A model generated the notes under the pieces. It made no database searches, was not told the DNA's origin, and saw only the letters and a program-made list of their open reading frames with translations. Position numbers and translations under genes: made by a program. This document shows, one piece after another, positions 7,027 through 37,189 of a stretch of 47,134 nt of DNA. The DNA lies in assembly GCA_016199935.1 (NCBI GenBank), contig JACQFS010000033.1, forward strand, positions 1-47,134, in the 5' to 3' direction. This DNA is from Verrucomicrobiota bacterium (GTDB lineage Bacteria; Verrucomicrobiota; Verrucomicrobiia; Limisphaerales; JACQFS01). Position 1 is the stretch's first letter. Every line of letters starts with the position of its first letter.

Positions 7027-7038
7027 GGTCGGAATTTT

Positions 7039-7071
7039 AACCACGGATGGACACGGATGCACACGGATAAG
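7039..7071. repeat. ACACGGAT-type short tandem repeat
   Basis: Four imperfect units (ccacggatgg, acacggatgc, acacggata) lie between the NHL-protein start and the preceding gene's stop on the same strand. Same family as the repeats at 2326, 13629 and 41103. Confidence 0.85.
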
Positions 7072-7094
7072 ATGGCCGTTCAATGCGCACGCGC

Positions 7095-8612
7095 TCACTT
7101 GTCCCCCGCGCGGAACGTATAGAGGTCGGCGTCCTTCAACTGGAACTCCAGCCGGATGACTTTGCCTTTGAGTTCGTCGAGGGATTTGCTGTTCCACTTC
7201 ACTTCGTGCGCGACGTTGTCGCCGGTGAACGCGGGGGCATCGTCGTAATTGAAACCCTTGATCGGCTTCCGCAATTCATCTGACACGCGCACTTTCATTT
7301 CGCCCGCGTGCGCGTCCGCGTTCACGAGCAGCGCGCCGCCGGGCCAGCGAAGTGCGCGGGTGCAGACCACGCCGCCCGTCTTGGGGCCGTGCTGCGATAC
7401 GAAGCCTTCCTTGCGCAGCGTCGCGAGGCCGATGGCGCCGGTGCGGGCCTTGGGGTCGTCGTGCGCGCCGTCGAAGCCGGCGTAGTAAATCCACCATTCG
7501 TCGCCGACCTCGACCCAGCGCGCGGTGCCGACGACCATCGAGTGATCCCACGCGCCCGCCGGGCCGAATTCGATGAGGTGTTGGCGCGCGGGTAGTCGCT
7601 CGAAGTTCCAGCCGTCGCGGCTCCAGGCAATTTCACTCGCGTAGAGATCGTTCCACAGGAACGGCGCGAGATGGCCCCACCAGATTCCCGCGTGCTGATG
7701 CACGGGCATGGCCATGAAATAATTGTAGCCCAACTCGGCGTCGCGCTCGTCGGGCATGAGGATGGTCTGCGGGCGGACGTTCCACTCGGTCCAGAGTTCC
7801 TTGCTGCTCATGCGCGAGAGGCCGCGGCGGGATTCGCCGCTGCTGAGCATCTCCTTCGTCTGGCCGGGCGCGCGGTAGATGTGCTTGGAGCGGCAGAACA
7901 TCACATACTCGTCGCGCGCGGCGTCGTATTGAATCGTGTTGTGCTGGTCGCTGGAAAGTTTGGCGATGCGCAAGTCGCTCTTGAAGTCCCAGTGAATTCC
8001 GTCCTGCGAGCCGATCAGATGGATGCCGTTGAGCGGCGCGGCGGTCATCAGGTAGTGCATCACGTAACGGAAGCCGCGGCGGTCCTTCTCCGGCAACTCG
8101 AGCATTTGCGGCGCGTGGGTGCCGCACTGGGGCGCGTCGAGGTGGTGGATGACCGTGTTGCGCGCGAGGTTGAACTTCTTCGCGTCGGGGAACAGATCGA
8201 GCGCGGGCTTTTCCCAATGCACGCCGTCCCTGGATTCCGCGTAGGCGACGGAGACGGAGTAGTTGCGCGGGTTGGTGCTTTCCTCCGGGTATTTCACGTT
8301 GGCCTGATACCACATGCGGAACTTCCCGCCGGCTTCGCGCAGCGCCCAAAGATTGCTCGGGTCATCACCGGTGATCAACGGATTGGCCGCGTGCTTCTTC
8401 GGCTGGTGCAGCACGCGTTTCACCGGCTCGCCCTTTGGTTTCAATCCCCACGTGGTGTCCACGGTGTAAAGATCGAAGACGAATTGCGGCTCGTGCCCGA
8501 TCTCCATCGGCTCGGCAGGAAACGTGGCGGCGTCCGCGCGCGGCGCGAGCGCGAGGAAGGCGAGGAGCGCGGAGCATAAGGCGGAAATGGCGGCGGGCGG
8601 GACGGTTTTCAT
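7095..8612 (-). CDS. Secreted five-bladed-propeller protein resembling glycoside hydrolase clans 32/43
   Basis: 505 residues starting MKTVPPAAISALCSALLAFL with a signal peptide ending near ADA. The body contains repeated blade-like segments of the form W..S.DG.HW (SRDGVHWEKP, SQDGIHWDFK, SRDGWNFERL), typical of five-bladed propellers of the GH32/GH43/GH130 type. Many verrucomicrobial and planctomycetal homologues have no known activity. Catalytic acids cannot be assigned with confidence. The frame extends upstream, but the Met at 8612 directly precedes the signal peptide. It lies upstream of the NHL gene on the same strand, 68 bp apart, so co-expression is possible. Confidence 0.65.
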   Translation of the reverse strand: MKTVPPAAISALCSALLAFLALAPRADAATFPAEPMEIGHEPQFVFDLYTVDTTWGLKPKGEPVKRVLHQPKKHAANPLITGDDPSNLWALREAGGKFRMWYQANVKYPEESTNPRNYSVSVAYAESRDGVHWEKPALDLFPDAKKFNLARNTVIHHLDAPQCGTHAPQMLELPEKDRRGFRYVMHYLMTAAPLNGIHLIGSQDGIHWDFKSDLRIAKLSSDQHNTIQYDAARDEYVMFCRSKHIYRAPGQTKEMLSSGESRRGLSRMSSKELWTEWNVRPQTILMPDERDAELGYNYFMAMPVHQHAGIWWGHLAPFLWNDLYASEIAWSRDGWNFERLPARQHLIEFGPAGAWDHSMVVGTARWVEVGDEWWIYYAGFDGAHDDPKARTGAIGLATLRKEGFVSQHGPKTGGVVCTRALRWPGGALLVNADAHAGEMKVRVSDELRKPIKGFNYDDAPAFTGDNVAHEVKWNSKSLDELKGKVIRLEFQLKDADLYTFRAGDK

Positions 8613-31087: not shown

Positions 31088-34000
31088 TCAGTAGCGGGTG
31101 ATGGTCTCGTGCAGGTTCAACACCGCGCGGGAGACCGCGGTCCACGCCGCGACTTCCTCGCCCGACAATCCCGGGGCGAGGCGGTATTGCCCGAAGTTTT
31201 GCAGTTCAGTCACGCGCGCGTCCTGGCCGCGGAGCCGCTCGCGCTGGTGCGCGTGGAGCTGGACGAGCGCGGTCGTCTCGTCCGGCTCGGGGGGCCGCTG
31301 GAGGACGCGATCAAAAATCCACGCGACGCGTTCCGGCGGCGACCTTCCCCCGCGATTCGCCGCGTAGGCCGCGAGCGCGACCGCGGCCTCGACCTGCGCG
31401 GGGCAGTTGAGCAGGGCGAGCGCCTGCAACGGCGTGTTGGAGACGGGCCGCTCGGCGACGCACTCCTCGCGCGACGGCGCATCGAACACCGCCAGCACCG
31501 GGTTCAAAAACGAGCGCTGCCAGAAGGCGTAGAGGCTGCGGCGGTATTGGGACAAGCCGGGGCTGGGCGCGTAGCCGCGCTTGGGAAAATCCAGGTGATC
31601 GAGAACGCCAACGGGATGGTAGAGATACACCGTGGGCCCGCCGAGGTTCGTGACCAAAATGCCGGCGGCTCGCAGCGCGTTGTCGCGGATCACTTCGGCT
31701 TCCAGCCGCCACCGGCCCTGCCGCGCGAAGAGGCGGTTGCGCGGATCGCGCGCCTCCAACTCCGGCCGGCCGGCGGACGCCTGCCGGTAGGTCCGCGAGT
31801 TGACGATCCACAGGACCAACTGCTTCACGCTCCAGCCGCTCTCCATGAATTCCACCGCGAGCCGGTCGAGCAACTCCGGGTGCGACGGCGAATCGCCCGC
31901 GACGCCGAAGTCGTCCAGCGTGGTCACGAGGCCGGTGCCAAAGAAAAGTTTCCACACGCGGTTGACGAACACGCGCGCCGTGAGCGGGTTGTCGCGCGCG
32001 ACGAGCCAGCGTGCGAGATCGAGCCGGTTGGTGCAACGGCCCGCCGGATCGAACAGCGCCGGCACGCCGGCGATTACCACCGGGCCGCTCTGATCCATCC
32101 AGTTGCCACGCGGCAGGACGCGCGTGACGCGCGACGCGCCCGACTCGGAGATGAGCGAGGCCGGCACTTCCATGAGCACCGCCTCACGCTCCTGGCTGGC
32201 TGCCTTCGCCATCTCACTCAGCGGCCAGACGGCCGGATGCGACCGGCGCAGGTGTTCACGCAGCGTCTCGCGGTCCGCGTCCGTCCAGGAGTCAGCCGTT
32301 CGCGACATCACCTTCGCGACCGGCGCGGGCAACCCCTGATCCTCGCCGTGCCACGCACCCTCCGGCGCCATCGAAAGGCGGAAGTGGCGCAGATTGCCGT
32401 GCGCCACGCCGGAATGATTTTCCAGCCGCACCCGCCAGCGGGTCTGCGGTCCGGCCTCCACGGTTTCCTTGAGATGGAACGCAATCCGGATCACAGGCGA
32501 CTTGAACTCAGGGCCGATGCCCCAGGAGGTCTTGGGATCGCCGTCCATGGAATATATTCCCAGGTGGCCGGTGCGGTTCGCCTCCGCGATCACGTAATCG
32601 AACGTCACCCCCCGCGGCGCCGCGCCCGGCTCGATGATTTCGAGGGCGACTTCGGACAGGTAATACTCGTAAGGAAAGCCGCTGAGCTCGACGGCGCGCA
32701 CCACCTCGGGGTCGCGCAACATTTCCAGCCGCAGCGAATCCACCGCGCCCGGCGCGGTCGAAAACTCGATCGTGTAATTGTCCTCCCGTTCCGGTCCGCG
32801 GATGACGAGCGAGCCGTCGGGTCGCCGCTCCCAGTCGCGCTGATCGCGGGACGTGAAGCCAAGATACCTGACCGGCCGCCACGCCAGCCGCTGCTCGTGC
32901 TGCGCGGCCTGCACCTTTTGCACCCACGGGTCGCGGCCGGAGAGCGCCTCCTCCTCGACCGCGTCGAGCCGGGCATCGGCGGCGTCCATTTTCTCCTTCA
33001 AGGCAGCCAGCCGCGACTGTTGTTCGGCGGACGGAAAGCGCACCGGGATCCGCGGCCCCACGCCCGCTTCCTTCAGGTCGGCGAAGCACGCCGCGAACCG
33101 GTAGAAGTCGCGCTGCTTGAGCGGATCGCTCTTGTGATCGTGGCACTCGGCGCAGCCGAGCGTCAGGCCCAGCCACACCGACGCCGTGTTGCGCACGCGA
33201 TCCGCGGCGTAGCGCAGGAGGTATTCCTCCGCGTTCGCGCCGCCCTCCTCGGTCGTCTTCACGAGCAGGTTGTAAGTGGAGGCGACGCGCTGCTCCTGCC
33301 CCGCGCCCGGCAGAAGGTCGCCGGCGATCTGCTCGCGCGTGAACTGGTCGAAGGCGCGGTTCTCGTTGAACGCCGCGACCACGTAGTCGCGGTAGGGCCA
33401 CACCGCGCGCGGATTGTCCGCGTGGTAGCCATCCGTGTCCGCGTAACGCACGAGGTCCAGCCAGAACATCGCCATCCGTTCCCCAAACTGCGGCGAGGTG
33501 TTCAGGCTCATCAACCGCACCACCTGCCGCTCATACGCGGCGGGATCAATCGTATGGACGAATTCCTCCACCGCTTCCGGCCGCGGCGGCAGGCCGGTCA
33601 GGTCAAAGCTCAACCGGCGCAACAGCGTCCGGCGATCCGCCTCGGGCGAAGGCGCGACGCCCTCCGCTTCGAGCTTCGCGAGGATGAATGAATCAATGAA
33701 GTTGCGCGGCCACGCCGTGTCCCGGACCGCCGGCTCGGGCGCGCGCTGCGGCGGGATGAACGCCCAATGCGATTCCCATTTCGCCCCCTGCTCCACCCAG
33801 CGCTTGAGCAGCTCGCGTTCGCGTGGCGTCAGCGGCCGGCCGTCTTTTGGCGGCGGCATCACCTCGTCGTCGGCATTGGAAAATATTCGGCGCACCAACT
33901 CGCTCTCACCCGCTTTGCCGGGAACCACCGCGCGCCGTCCGCCGTGCTCGCGCATCGCCTCGTCCGCCGAGTCGAGCCGCAATTTCGTCTCCCTGGTCTT

Positions 34001-34150
34001 CGCCCCCGCGCCGTGGCAGCCGAAACATTTCTCGGCGAGAATCGGGCGCACGTCGCGGTTGAACCGCACCGCATCCGGCAACGCGCCGCCCGTTGCCGCC
34101 GCGGTGCCCAGTCGGGCGACCGTCAGCAGCGCGACCAACGTTGTCAGCAT
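31088..34150 (-). CDS. PSCyt1/DUF1549/DUF1553 multidomain protein, paralogue A
   Basis: 1020 residues from the Met at 34150 (MLTTLVALLTVARLG); an upstream Met at 34204 would put 18 extra residues before the signal peptide. The heme motif CFGCH is at Cys42/Cys45/His46, followed by MPPPKDGRPLTPRERELLKRW, DUF1549 and DUF1553. The order and many blocks are identical to paralogue B, and even the last residues AVLNLHETITRY are the same. It is the first gene of a three-gene operon with DUF1501 and paralogue B. The role is presumed periplasmic electron-transfer-linked polymer breakdown, inferred from genomic habits of the family. Confidence 0.88.
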   Translation of the reverse strand: MLTTLVALLTVARLGTAAATGGALPDAVRFNRDVRPILAEKCFGCHGAGAKTRETKLRLDSADEAMREHGGRRAVVPGKAGESELVRRIFSNADDEVMPPPKDGRPLTPRERELLKRWVEQGAKWESHWAFIPPQRAPEPAVRDTAWPRNFIDSFILAKLEAEGVAPSPEADRRTLLRRLSFDLTGLPPRPEAVEEFVHTIDPAAYERQVVRLMSLNTSPQFGERMAMFWLDLVRYADTDGYHADNPRAVWPYRDYVVAAFNENRAFDQFTREQIAGDLLPGAGQEQRVASTYNLLVKTTEEGGANAEEYLLRYAADRVRNTASVWLGLTLGCAECHDHKSDPLKQRDFYRFAACFADLKEAGVGPRIPVRFPSAEQQSRLAALKEKMDAADARLDAVEEEALSGRDPWVQKVQAAQHEQRLAWRPVRYLGFTSRDQRDWERRPDGSLVIRGPEREDNYTIEFSTAPGAVDSLRLEMLRDPEVVRAVELSGFPYEYYLSEVALEIIEPGAAPRGVTFDYVIAEANRTGHLGIYSMDGDPKTSWGIGPEFKSPVIRIAFHLKETVEAGPQTRWRVRLENHSGVAHGNLRHFRLSMAPEGAWHGEDQGLPAPVAKVMSRTADSWTDADRETLREHLRRSHPAVWPLSEMAKAASQEREAVLMEVPASLISESGASRVTRVLPRGNWMDQSGPVVIAGVPALFDPAGRCTNRLDLARWLVARDNPLTARVFVNRVWKLFFGTGLVTTLDDFGVAGDSPSHPELLDRLAVEFMESGWSVKQLVLWIVNSRTYRQASAGRPELEARDPRNRLFARQGRWRLEAEVIRDNALRAAGILVTNLGGPTVYLYHPVGVLDHLDFPKRGYAPSPGLSQYRRSLYAFWQRSFLNPVLAVFDAPSREECVAERPVSNTPLQALALLNCPAQVEAAVALAAYAANRGGRSPPERVAWIFDRVLQRPPEPDETTALVQLHAHQRERLRGQDARVTELQNFGQYRLAPGLSGEEVAAWTAVSRAVLNLHETITRY

Positions 34151-34288
34151 CGCGCGCACGTTCCTTAACTCTCCGGCCGGAAGCAGGCACACACCACCCG
34201 CCATCAGCCAAAAACAACCGGCCGGAAGTTGGCAGACTCCCGTGGCCGATGCGATGCGGAAATTGGGAGCGAGTCGAAGAAGGCTCCG

Positions 34289-35884
34289 TCAGCGCGGCGC
34301 CGCCGCACGCTGCTCGGCGCGGAGTTTGAAGCCGGACAGGCTGCGCAGCACAAACGGCGGCGGGGAATCCGGCGGGAGCGATTGCAGGACGCGACCGAGC
34401 CGCTCGCGCGCCGCGACCGCCGCCGGCTCCCCGCTCGCGGCGAGGTCGTGCTGTTCGTCGGGGTCGGCATTCGCATCGAAGAGCCGGCCATCGGAATAAA
34501 GTTTGAAGCGCGTGTCGCGGACGACGCGCACCGAGGCATACTGGTTGAAAATCCATTCGCGCGGCGGCTTCGCGCCCGGCTCACCGCGGAGAAACGGTGC
34601 GAGCGAGCGGCCATCGAGCGTAACATTTTTTGGAGGCGCGATGCCTGCGAGGTCGCACAGCGTCGGCAGCACGTCGGAGAAATCCGCCAGCGGCGCGGTG
34701 CGTCCGCCGGGGATGAGCTTGGGGCTGTTCGCCAGCAGCACCACGTCACCGCCCGCCTCGGTGAGCGTGTAAAGGCCGCCGCGCACTTCGCGGCCGTTGC
34801 GGCGCGCGGTCATTTCTTTTTCCGTGCCGTTGTCGCTGGCGATGAAGACGAGCGTGTTGTCGCGCAGCCCGAGCCTCTCCAGTTCAACGACCAGTTCGCC
34901 CACGAGCTTGTCGGCGTAGCGCACCATGTCGGCGAACATCTCGTGGTGCGGACGGTTGGTGCTGAGATTGAGCGGCGTCGGCACCACCGGCTCCACGAAC
35001 GACTTTCCGTGCGTCAGCACCATCGGATAGTAGAGCAGGAACGGCCCGCCGCGATGCCGCTGGAGGAATTCGAGCGCGAAGGATTGCAACAGGTCGGGGC
35101 CGAACTTGCCGGGGTGCGTCTCGCGCTTCCCATTGCGCAGGAGCACCGGATCCCAGTAGCGGCTCTCGATGTTGCGGTTGAGCACGGCCAGTTCCTCGTG
35201 CGCCTCGGCGCGGACGAGCGCGCGGAATTTTTCCATCGCGGCCGCGCCGACGCGATTACTGTCAATGCTGCCGGGCCAGACGAGTTGCTCGTCGAAGCCG
35301 TGGCGCTTCAGCACATCCGGTTCGTCGTAGAGATTGTTGATCTGCCATTTGCCCGCGATGCCCGTCGCGTAGCCGGCGTCGCGGAACGGGCGGGCAAAAG
35401 TAATCTCGCGCTTCGGGTCGAAGCCACCGCCGCTGTAGAGCGCGGCATCGTGATGCATCGTGAAGCCGCTGCGCAAAAGGTAGCGGCCCGAGAGCAGCAC
35501 GATGCGGCTCGGCCCGCAGACCGGCGGCGTGTAGCAGTGCTCAACGCGCACGCCTGTCCGCGCGAGCCGGTCAATGTTCGGCGTGCACTTTTCCTCCGAG
35601 CCGTAGCAGCCGAACCATTCCTGCCCCACGTTGTCGAGGAGGATGAAGACAATGTTCGGGCGCGCGGGCGCGGCGGCGCGAGTGGGCGAAACTGCAAAGG
35701 TCGTGAGCAGAGCGCCGAGCAGAACCGCGAACCCGAACCCACCCCTGGCCCCTCCCAGGAGCGGAAAGCGTCGCTTGTAGTTTGAGAATCTCGCGACGTG
35801 CGATTGACCCATTCCCCTCCTGGGAGGGGCCAGGGGTGGGTTCGGCAGCGATTGATTTGCGCGTTCAGCGGAATCCATTTTCAT
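34289..35884 (-). CDS. Sulfatase (Cys-type, arylsulfatase family)
   Basis: 531 residues. The sulfatase signature CGPSRIVLLSGRY has Cys123, which would be converted to formylglycine by a sulfatase-maturing enzyme not seen here. The metal segment is NIVFILLDN: the second Asp of the usual DD pair is Asn. Later landmarks are the His/Lys region GKWQINN and IASDNGTE. The hydrophobic signal core is FAVLLGALLTTFAVSPTRAAA, unusually far from the first Met because a palindromic element (35735-35843) lies in the 5' coding part. Met at 35812 is an alternative start. The first Met overlaps the upstream isomerase gene by 20 bp. Likely substrate: a sulfated glycan. Confidence 0.88.
   Translation of the reverse strand: MKMDSAERANQSLPNPPLAPPRRGMGQSHVARFSNYKRRFPLLGGARGGFGFAVLLGALLTTFAVSPTRAAAPARPNIVFILLDNVGQEWFGCYGSEEKCTPNIDRLARTGVRVEHCYTPPVCGPSRIVLLSGRYLLRSGFTMHHDAALYSGGGFDPKREITFARPFRDAGYATGIAGKWQINNLYDEPDVLKRHGFDEQLVWPGSIDSNRVGAAAMEKFRALVRAEAHEELAVLNRNIESRYWDPVLLRNGKRETHPGKFGPDLLQSFALEFLQRHRGGPFLLYYPMVLTHGKSFVEPVVPTPLNLSTNRPHHEMFADMVRYADKLVGELVVELERLGLRDNTLVFIASDNGTEKEMTARRNGREVRGGLYTLTEAGGDVVLLANSPKLIPGGRTAPLADFSDVLPTLCDLAGIAPPKNVTLDGRSLAPFLRGEPGAKPPREWIFNQYASVRVVRDTRFKLYSDGRLFDANADPDEQHDLAASGEPAAVAARERLGRVLQSLPPDSPPPFVLRSLSGFKLRAEQRAAAPR
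35735..35843. repeat. REPIN-like inverted pair overlapping the sulfatase 5' end
   Basis: Arms 35735-35760 and 35818-35843 are perfect 26-bp inverted copies (GAACCCACCCCTGGCCCC..). Each arm also contains its own hairpin (CCCCTC-CTGG-GAGGGG, one mismatch in one arm). It is read through in the sulfatase frame as PPLAPPRRG and PLLGGARGG. Confidence 0.8.
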
Positions 35885-36761
35885 CCAGCCACGCGATGAA
35901 GCGGCGCGCGCAGCGATCCAAATTTTCTATGCTGCCGCCGCCGCGCACGGGCGAGCACATCTCGTAGGCAATGGGGCCGTCGAAGCCGCCCGCTTTCAGC
36001 CCACGCACGAAGTCGAGCGTGCCGATGTCGCCCTCGCCGACCGGCACGGCGCGCGCGAGGGCGGGGCCGACGGGCGCGTAGTTCACGAGGTCGGGCTGGT
36101 AACGTGCGCGTGGCAGGCGGAGGTAATCGGCAATCGTCGTGTAACACGTAAGCTTCGCGAGCTTGCGCGCGGTGTCGAACGCCGGCTCGCCGCGCAGGCA
36201 CGGCGACCACGGGTCGAGCATGAGCTTGCAGTTCGCGCGGTTCACGTCGCCACGCAACTCAACCAGCGCCTTGCTGTGCACCGCGACGTCGTGATGGTTC
36301 TGAATGCCGATGGTCACGCCGTGCTCCGCGGCGCGGTCGCAGCACTGCTGGATCGCGGCGACGACGGTGTTCCATGCGGTGCCGATGGGCACGTCGTCGC
36401 GCTCGTAGGCGGTGAAGACGCGAACCAGTTTGCAACCAAGCCCTTTCGCCATTCGCGCGAGCGACTCGACGTATTGCACCTGCATGTCAATCAGCGGCAC
36501 TTCGGCGGCCTTCGGGTCGGGAGAAAAGTTGGTGTAGGCAGCGACGCACGAGACTTCGAGGCGGTGCCGGTCGCAAAGGTTGCGGAGCTTGATGAGCTTC
36601 GCGCGGTCGTCCCAGTCGAGCGGCGAGAGGTGCGGGCGCTTGCCGGCGAGTTCGACGCCCGCGTAGCCGAGTTTGCGCGCGTGCGGGATGAATTCTTCGA
36701 GACTCAACCGCGCCTGGCCCCAAAAGCCGGCGTAGCTGACGGAGAAGAGGACGGGTTTCAT
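35865..36761 (-). CDS. Sugar phosphate isomerase/epimerase (xylose-isomerase-like TIM barrel)
   Basis: 298 residues beginning MKPVLFSVSYAGFWGQARLSLEEFI. The pattern of a first strand with a hydrophobic residue-rich start, LGYAGVELAGKRPHL, then IGIQNHH and LMLDPWSP, and a final GPIAYEMCSP matches the AP-endonuclease-2/xylose-isomerase-like family, with His, Asp and Glu candidates for a divalent metal site in the barrel. No signal peptide, so cytoplasmic. The frame extends upstream to 36863, but this Met gives the family N-terminus. The sulfatase gene overlaps its 3' end by 20 bp, suggesting joint catabolism of a sulfated sugar, an inference. Confidence 0.8.
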   Translation of the reverse strand: MKPVLFSVSYAGFWGQARLSLEEFIPHARKLGYAGVELAGKRPHLSPLDWDDRAKLIKLRNLCDRHRLEVSCVAAYTNFSPDPKAAEVPLIDMQVQYVESLARMAKGLGCKLVRVFTAYERDDVPIGTAWNTVVAAIQQCCDRAAEHGVTIGIQNHHDVAVHSKALVELRGDVNRANCKLMLDPWSPCLRGEPAFDTARKLAKLTCYTTIADYLRLPRARYQPDLVNYAPVGPALARAVPVGEGDIGTLDFVRGLKAGGFDGPIAYEMCSPVRGGGSIENLDRCARRFIAWLDENGFR

Positions 36762-36763
36762 AG

Positions 36764-37189
36764 CTACCGAGTTTTTGCCAATCCAAGCAATCGCGTCACA
36801 GTGGAAATCCAAGTCGTCATTATCCAGTCGTCTCCCAAGGGCCCAACACGCTCCACCGTCCAACCGGCGAATCGCAGTTCATTGTGCATCGACCAACTCT
36901 TCTCCACATTCGATGAATGGATCACTACCGGGCAAGTCGGTTGACGACTTGCGAGGAACTCCGCCACGTCCAAACCCGTCCCCGGATCCGCGCCAGTCAC
37001 CGAGTTCAAATCGTGGTCGAGCGAAATGAGCAGCGCACTCGAAAGGAGCTGGTCGCATCCGGTAATCATCAATCCGGCATCACGCCAAATCCGAATTCGG
37101 AGCGACCCACCGATTGTCTTCACCGCATCTTCGAACCGCCTGATCCGATCTTCGTCGTCTTCGAGCATCAGGATCAGGTCTTGTTGCAC
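36764..37189 (-). CDS. Cyclic-phosphate processing receiver-domain protein
   Basis: 141 residues from a GTG at 37189; the ATG at 37168 (MLEDDEDRIRRF) is the alternative. The open frame extends further upstream into the nitrilase gene in another frame, which I treat as spurious. The sequence LILMLEDDEDRIRRFEDAV is a receiver-like first strand with acidic residues. The middle ALLISLDHDLNSVTGADPGTGLDVAEFLA and VVIHSSNVEKSWSM are the conserved LDHDL and HSxN elements of the cyclic-phosphate processing receiver family (PF20274), proposed to act on RNA ends. Base composition is lower in GC than neighbours. It follows the nitrilase gene by 29 bp. Confidence 0.6.
   Translation of the reverse strand: MQQDLILMLEDDEDRIRRFEDAVKTIGGSLRIRIWRDAGLMITGCDQLLSSALLISLDHDLNSVTGADPGTGLDVAEFLASRQPTCPVVIHSSNVEKSWSMHNELRFAGWTVERVGPLGDDWIMTTWISTVTRLLGLAKTR

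Follow-up and report, generated by a model that had tools for sequence, protein, structure and literature searches.

A palindromic repeat dimer at the 5′ end of a verrucomicrobial sulfatase gene is probably a copy of a dispersed REP-like element

Results

We propose that the inverted repeat at the 5′ end of a verrucomicrobial sulfatase gene belongs to a dispersed family of non-autonomous, REP-like palindromic dimers and was inserted at the junction of this gene with an upstream TIM-barrel gene; we put the probability of this reading at roughly 0.88. The gene lies in a 47,134-nt stretch of DNA, referred to here as the window. The features of the locus are as follows.

34289-35884, minus strand: sulfatase gene (PF00884, Pfam E = 4.7e-34) with a CGPSR formylglycine-type motif in its sequence
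35733-35845, no strand assigned: whole element, an inward-facing inverted dimer of a ~30-nt palindromic repeat (repeat search; same-format copies in the same order)
35733-35765, plus strand: first copy of the repeat unit, CCGAACCCACCCCTGGCCCCTCCCAGGAGCGGA, differing from the 28-mer core at one position; translated in the sulfatase as its second arm, PLLGGARGG
35766-35812, no strand assigned: spacer between the units, 47 nt, translated as MGQSHVARFSNYKRRF
35810-35812, minus strand: candidate start codon at residue 25, an ATG lying in frame between the two arms
35813-35845, minus strand: repeat unit copy 2, CCGAACCCACCCCTGGCCCCTCCCAGGAGGGGA, containing the exact multi-phylum 28-mer; first arm of the sulfatase, NPPLAPPRRG
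35816-35821, minus strand: AGGAGG, a Shine-Dalgarno-like hexamer from the repeat, 3 nt before ATG 35812 and within the predicted stem (sequence, fold)
35876-35884, minus strand: ATG AAA ATG, the two in-frame starts farther upstream, at residues 1 and 3, which overlap the 3′ end of the TIM-barrel gene
35865-36863, minus strand: upstream gene, xylose-isomerase-like TIM barrel (PF01261, Pfam), stop at 35865-35867

The preliminary description had placed an inverted repeat with 26-bp arms in the 5′ coding end of the gene. The location was correct, but the perfect arms measure 29 bp (35733-35761 and 35817-35845). With arms allowed within 150 nt of each other, this is the longest perfect inverted repeat of the window, while four sequences simulated with the dinucleotide frequencies of the window gave perfect arms of 12-15 bp, with a maximum of 15. 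When mismatches were permitted in the repeat search, the arms reached 40 nt at 93% complementarity and 33 nt apart. The sulfatase ORF opens with MKMDSAERANQSLPNPPLAPPRRGMGQSHVARFSNYKRRFPLLGGARGGFGFAVLLGALL, and the arms fall between Met1 and the signal-peptide core as described earlier, being translated as NPPLAPPRRG and PLLGGARGG before the core FGFAVLLGALLTTFAV. The element starts 19 nt beyond the TIM-barrel stop (35865) and its second arm adjoins the hydrophobic export core. The minus-strand RNA of the palindrome has a predicted folding energy of -88.7 kcal/mol compared with -44.5 for shuffled sequences (z = -11.2), which agrees with the earlier suggestion that the 5′ mRNA could form a strong stem. 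A promoter and terminator scan around the palindrome found nothing; for intrinsic terminators (a GC-rich hairpin with a T run) the scan covered 35600-37000 and no terminator-like site was present. The palindrome matched Rfam only below threshold, to hairpins of microRNA families, and these matches were taken as chance. A gene with PSCyt1, PSCyt2 and PSD1 domains adjoins the sulfatase gene at 31088-34204. The pairing of such a gene with a sulfatase is frequent in Planctomycetes and Verrucomicrobia.

We examined which start codons are available to the sulfatase. In its N-terminal region the only in-frame ATG, GTG or TTG codons are at 35884, 35878 and 35812. The real start had been suggested to lie after the palindrome, yet no such codon occurs beyond the second arm, and the sole downstream candidate, ATG 35812, is situated between the arms. 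A start beyond the palindrome thus fails unless CTG is used, and PLLGGARGG is consequently translated from any of the three ordinary starts. The repeat sets AGGAGGGGA directly before ATG 35812; as a Shine-Dalgarno sequence this is a good one, with short spacing, although the predicted fold buries it in the stem. The starts at 35884 and 35878 have no obvious Shine-Dalgarno sequence and overlap the upstream TIM-barrel gene, an arrangement compatible with translational coupling. Initiation would occur either at 35884 or 35878, with both arms read through, or at the inter-arm codon 35812, using the AGGAGGGGA that the repeat itself supplies. The longest ORF alone is an insufficient basis for annotating the start of this gene, and the unusual peptide at its N-terminus derives from the repeat and does not belong to the enzyme.

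Comparison with orthologues indicates that the palindrome is extra DNA. Two close sulfatase orthologues, in genomes G024 (75% identity) and G002 (68%), are without the element, and their starts immediately precede the signal peptide; no further close orthologue was found among 320 genomes of the order. Both come from other families, and their upstream genes differ from that in the window. The palindrome has pushed the apparent start upstream relative to these two genes, as had been suspected. The earlier idea would have been undermined by orthologues sharing the N-terminal peptide without the palindrome; none was seen, as both close orthologues lack peptide and palindrome alike. In the spacer, NYKRRF resembles KYSRRF before the G024 sulfatase start, a similarity too short to interpret.

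Each arm of the palindrome corresponds to a ~30-nt unit, AACCCACCCCTGGCCCCTCCCAGGAGGGGA, and the two units face inward. Pattern searches, from which all genome-wide repeat counts derive, recovered only two copies of the unit in the genome of the window (5.03 Mb, 260 contigs), and these form the sulfatase pair; the spacer sequence has no further copy in this genome. Matches to the repeat pattern were patchily distributed in 19 of 293 genomes of the same order, and a reversed-pattern control gave zero matches in the 293. Repeat-rich genomes carry 81 (G024), 61 (G139), 51 (G177) and 40 (G050) half-sites. Elsewhere in the order the dimers likewise face inward, mostly with spacers of 19-39 nt, so the 47-49 nt of the window element is above most of its sister elements.

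Exact matches to the 28-mer were found in 77 stretches of GTDB genomes from about nine phyla, at loci with a GC content of 40-59%. Its hosts include Verrucomicrobia, Kiritimatiellae, Planctomycetota (including Brocadia and Scalindua), Cyanobacteria, Bacteroidetes, Calditrichaeota, Hydrogenedentota, SAR324, Desulfovibrionales and bacterium UASB270. Many of the sources are metagenome assemblies; a complete Brocadia genome, Phormidium willei BDU 130791 and Robiginitalea marina 2V75 are also among them. The unit ends, AACCCACC... and ...GGAGGGGA, are constant across all sampled phyla. By a permissive pair test, all verrucomicrobial 28-mer copies (21/21) are in inverted pairs, and single or tandem copies are common in the other phyla.

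Several loci of the family have features of their own. Dense mixed clusters with many repeat variants, unlike the simple verrucomicrobial dimers, are found in Brocadia and Scalindua (L068, L117, L132), and in Phormidium sp. OSCR (L094, L095, L137) the repeat alternates with GGCAAGA-like or TTCCCTA-like short tandem repeats to form arrays. Eight viral contigs contain the looser repeat pattern, each as a single copy (L234-L241), which may point to a route of transfer or to host DNA among the collected sequences. At L272 (G035:C491) two ~200-nt inverted copies bearing the element, at 1803-2003 and 7034-7240, are 98% complementary over 124 nt. The 5 kb segment between them was considered as an autonomous carrier and rejected, as the predicted proteins tested there contain no transposase domain.

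Sister copies of the element are located inside other genes. Our sample from the same order comprised about 37 dimers, together with some single units, and 20 ORFs that span them were tested; the in-frame cases found are therefore a minimum and do not give a rate. Pfam domains continue on both sides of the element in GatB (two separate elements), squalene/phytoene synthase, Mfd, MutS, AcrB and urease gamma/beta, and a single repeat unit lies in frame within a GcvT ORF whose Pfam domain likewise extends to both sides. The gatB gene of G050 carries insertions, while that of G112, from the same genus, has neither. A HupE/UreJ-like gene similarly contains an insertion in G024 that is absent from G075 of the same genus. 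The G024 ORF (L011, G024:C9:8129-11153) additionally has a PSPPLRSGEGE stretch, seemingly from a second, different type of palindromic repeat. N-terminal elements such as that of the window sulfatase were found in glutamine-synthetase, BNR, DUF3106 and TIM-barrel ORFs. The encoded peptide varies by frame (NPPLAPPRRG, PTPDPSQEG and PTPSPLPGGE types) and all three phases are used.

Discussion

We favor a model in which two ~30-nt units, oriented toward one another across a spacer, inserted, in the lineage of the window, where the TIM-barrel gene meets the sulfatase gene, the element having spread in what would be a transposition-like manner. Both arms and the spacer are open in the sulfatase frame and so the gene survived; its sulfatase domain, formylglycine motif and hydrophobic export core are intact despite the element. 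The element would now constitute the 5′ leader of the gene, an N-terminal extension of the protein, or both, and its ~29-bp hairpin may lower or modulate sulfatase expression. A selected function is unnecessary to explain the element. The presence of only one pair in the genome of the window is unusual for a REP family and speaks against this reading. So do the spacer, which exceeds that of most sister elements, and the origin of both close orthologues in other families, with different upstream genes.

The very strong predicted stem (z = -11.2) and the placement of AGGAGGGGA directly before an in-frame ATG could also be taken to mean that the palindrome is a selected cis-regulator, the stem hiding AGGAGGGGA and ATG 35812 until it opens on a signal and so tuning translation or export. 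We regard this as quite improbable, since the sulfatase orthologues are without the palindrome, the arrangement is not conserved, the same repeat occurs in the middle of unrelated genes, and the stem is too stable for an easily imagined simple switch. An artefact of assembly or binning, or a contig from another repeat-rich organism, would account for the single-copy state in a fragmented assembly and for the closest orthologue residing in the repeat-rich G024; the reading frame is nevertheless intact through the element, and we give this explanation very little credence. A misbinned contig was rejected on composition: in tetranucleotide frequencies and GC, each of the four window quarters agrees with the remainder of the genome (correlation 0.95-0.98), and their GC is 0.64-0.67 versus 0.58 in G024.

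Identity as a true REPIN, mobilised by a RAYT (Y1 tyrosine transposase) present in the genome, is unlikely, though less so than either of these. The element is an inverted dimer of short palindromes, and Y1_Tnp genes were present in every repeat-bearing genome tested, but they occur in control genomes too and their presence alone says little. In 13 repeat-bearing genomes, with about 3 kb inspected per locus, none of 59 Y1_Tnp loci was directly flanked by the repeat; a dimer lay within about 1.5 kb at two of them, in one case owing to a repeat located within the adjacent gene. The element also has no GTAG tag.

The element is a commonplace type of genomic passenger in an informative position. 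The sulfatase locus holds modest interest in its own right; the distribution of the family across phyla and its intragenic habit are more interesting. The palindrome recurs without a changed letter in different phyla and lies in the reading frame of core genes. Tentatively, and at less than even odds, we suggest that one mobile palindrome family (AACCCACCCCTNNCCCCTCCNNGGAGGGGA) has spread horizontally over many phyla through the action of a mobilising enzyme and has inserted repeatedly in frame into core genes, which would thereby gain peptides rich in proline and glycine and, now and then, a ribosome binding site. The family is a good test case for repeat movement without an obvious transposase and for the tolerance of proteins to insertions. 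The letters of the repeat had no match in a literature search of main texts, with supplements and most subscription journals outside its range, and the sequence family appears to be undescribed in the literature searched.

The kind of element, the intragenic REP dimer, is already known. GTAG/CGTC REP repeats often form head-to-head dimers with variable spacers of 20-100 bp, and some lie within ORFs, for example in Opitutus terrae and Rickettsia conorii, where they contribute 20-30 extra residues with an excess at protein N-termini, although many N-terminal REPs may in fact precede the genuine start codon (PMC3733652). The window family shares with these intragenic dimers its short palindromes, dimeric format, intragenic and N-terminal positions and DNA-repair targets (mutS and mfd). 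It differs from the GTAG/CGTC superfamilies in sequence, in having no GTAG or CGTC tag at either end, and in an exact 28-mer shared across many phyla. Like REPINs with their RAYT transposases (PMC3116915, PMC2817692), it consists of two inverted short palindromes that make up one hairpin unit, dispersed and non-autonomous; unlike them, it has no repeat-flanked RAYT gene among the 59 Y1_Tnp loci of the 13 genomes, a single copy in the genome of the window, and frequent in-frame intragenic copies. A palindromic unit of 20-40 nt, dispersed and often in inverted pairs, characterizes REP-like repeats in general and is also what the family shows. High copy number is seen in G024, G139, G177 and G050, but not in the genome of the window (G000, one pair).

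The classic case of in-frame insertion is that of the Rickettsia palindromic elements (reviewed in PMC10969869). The window element has another sequence and is shorter (about 110 versus ~150 bp), and whereas the Rickettsia elements give one conserved peptide in one preferred frame, the window family is read in several. Both consist of palindromic units that lie in frame in unrelated genes and are tolerated by the proteins. In-frame insertion into genes whose orthologues are without the element, as with the Rickettsia elements, was found directly for gatB and the HupE/UreJ-like gene and through split Pfam domains for the others.
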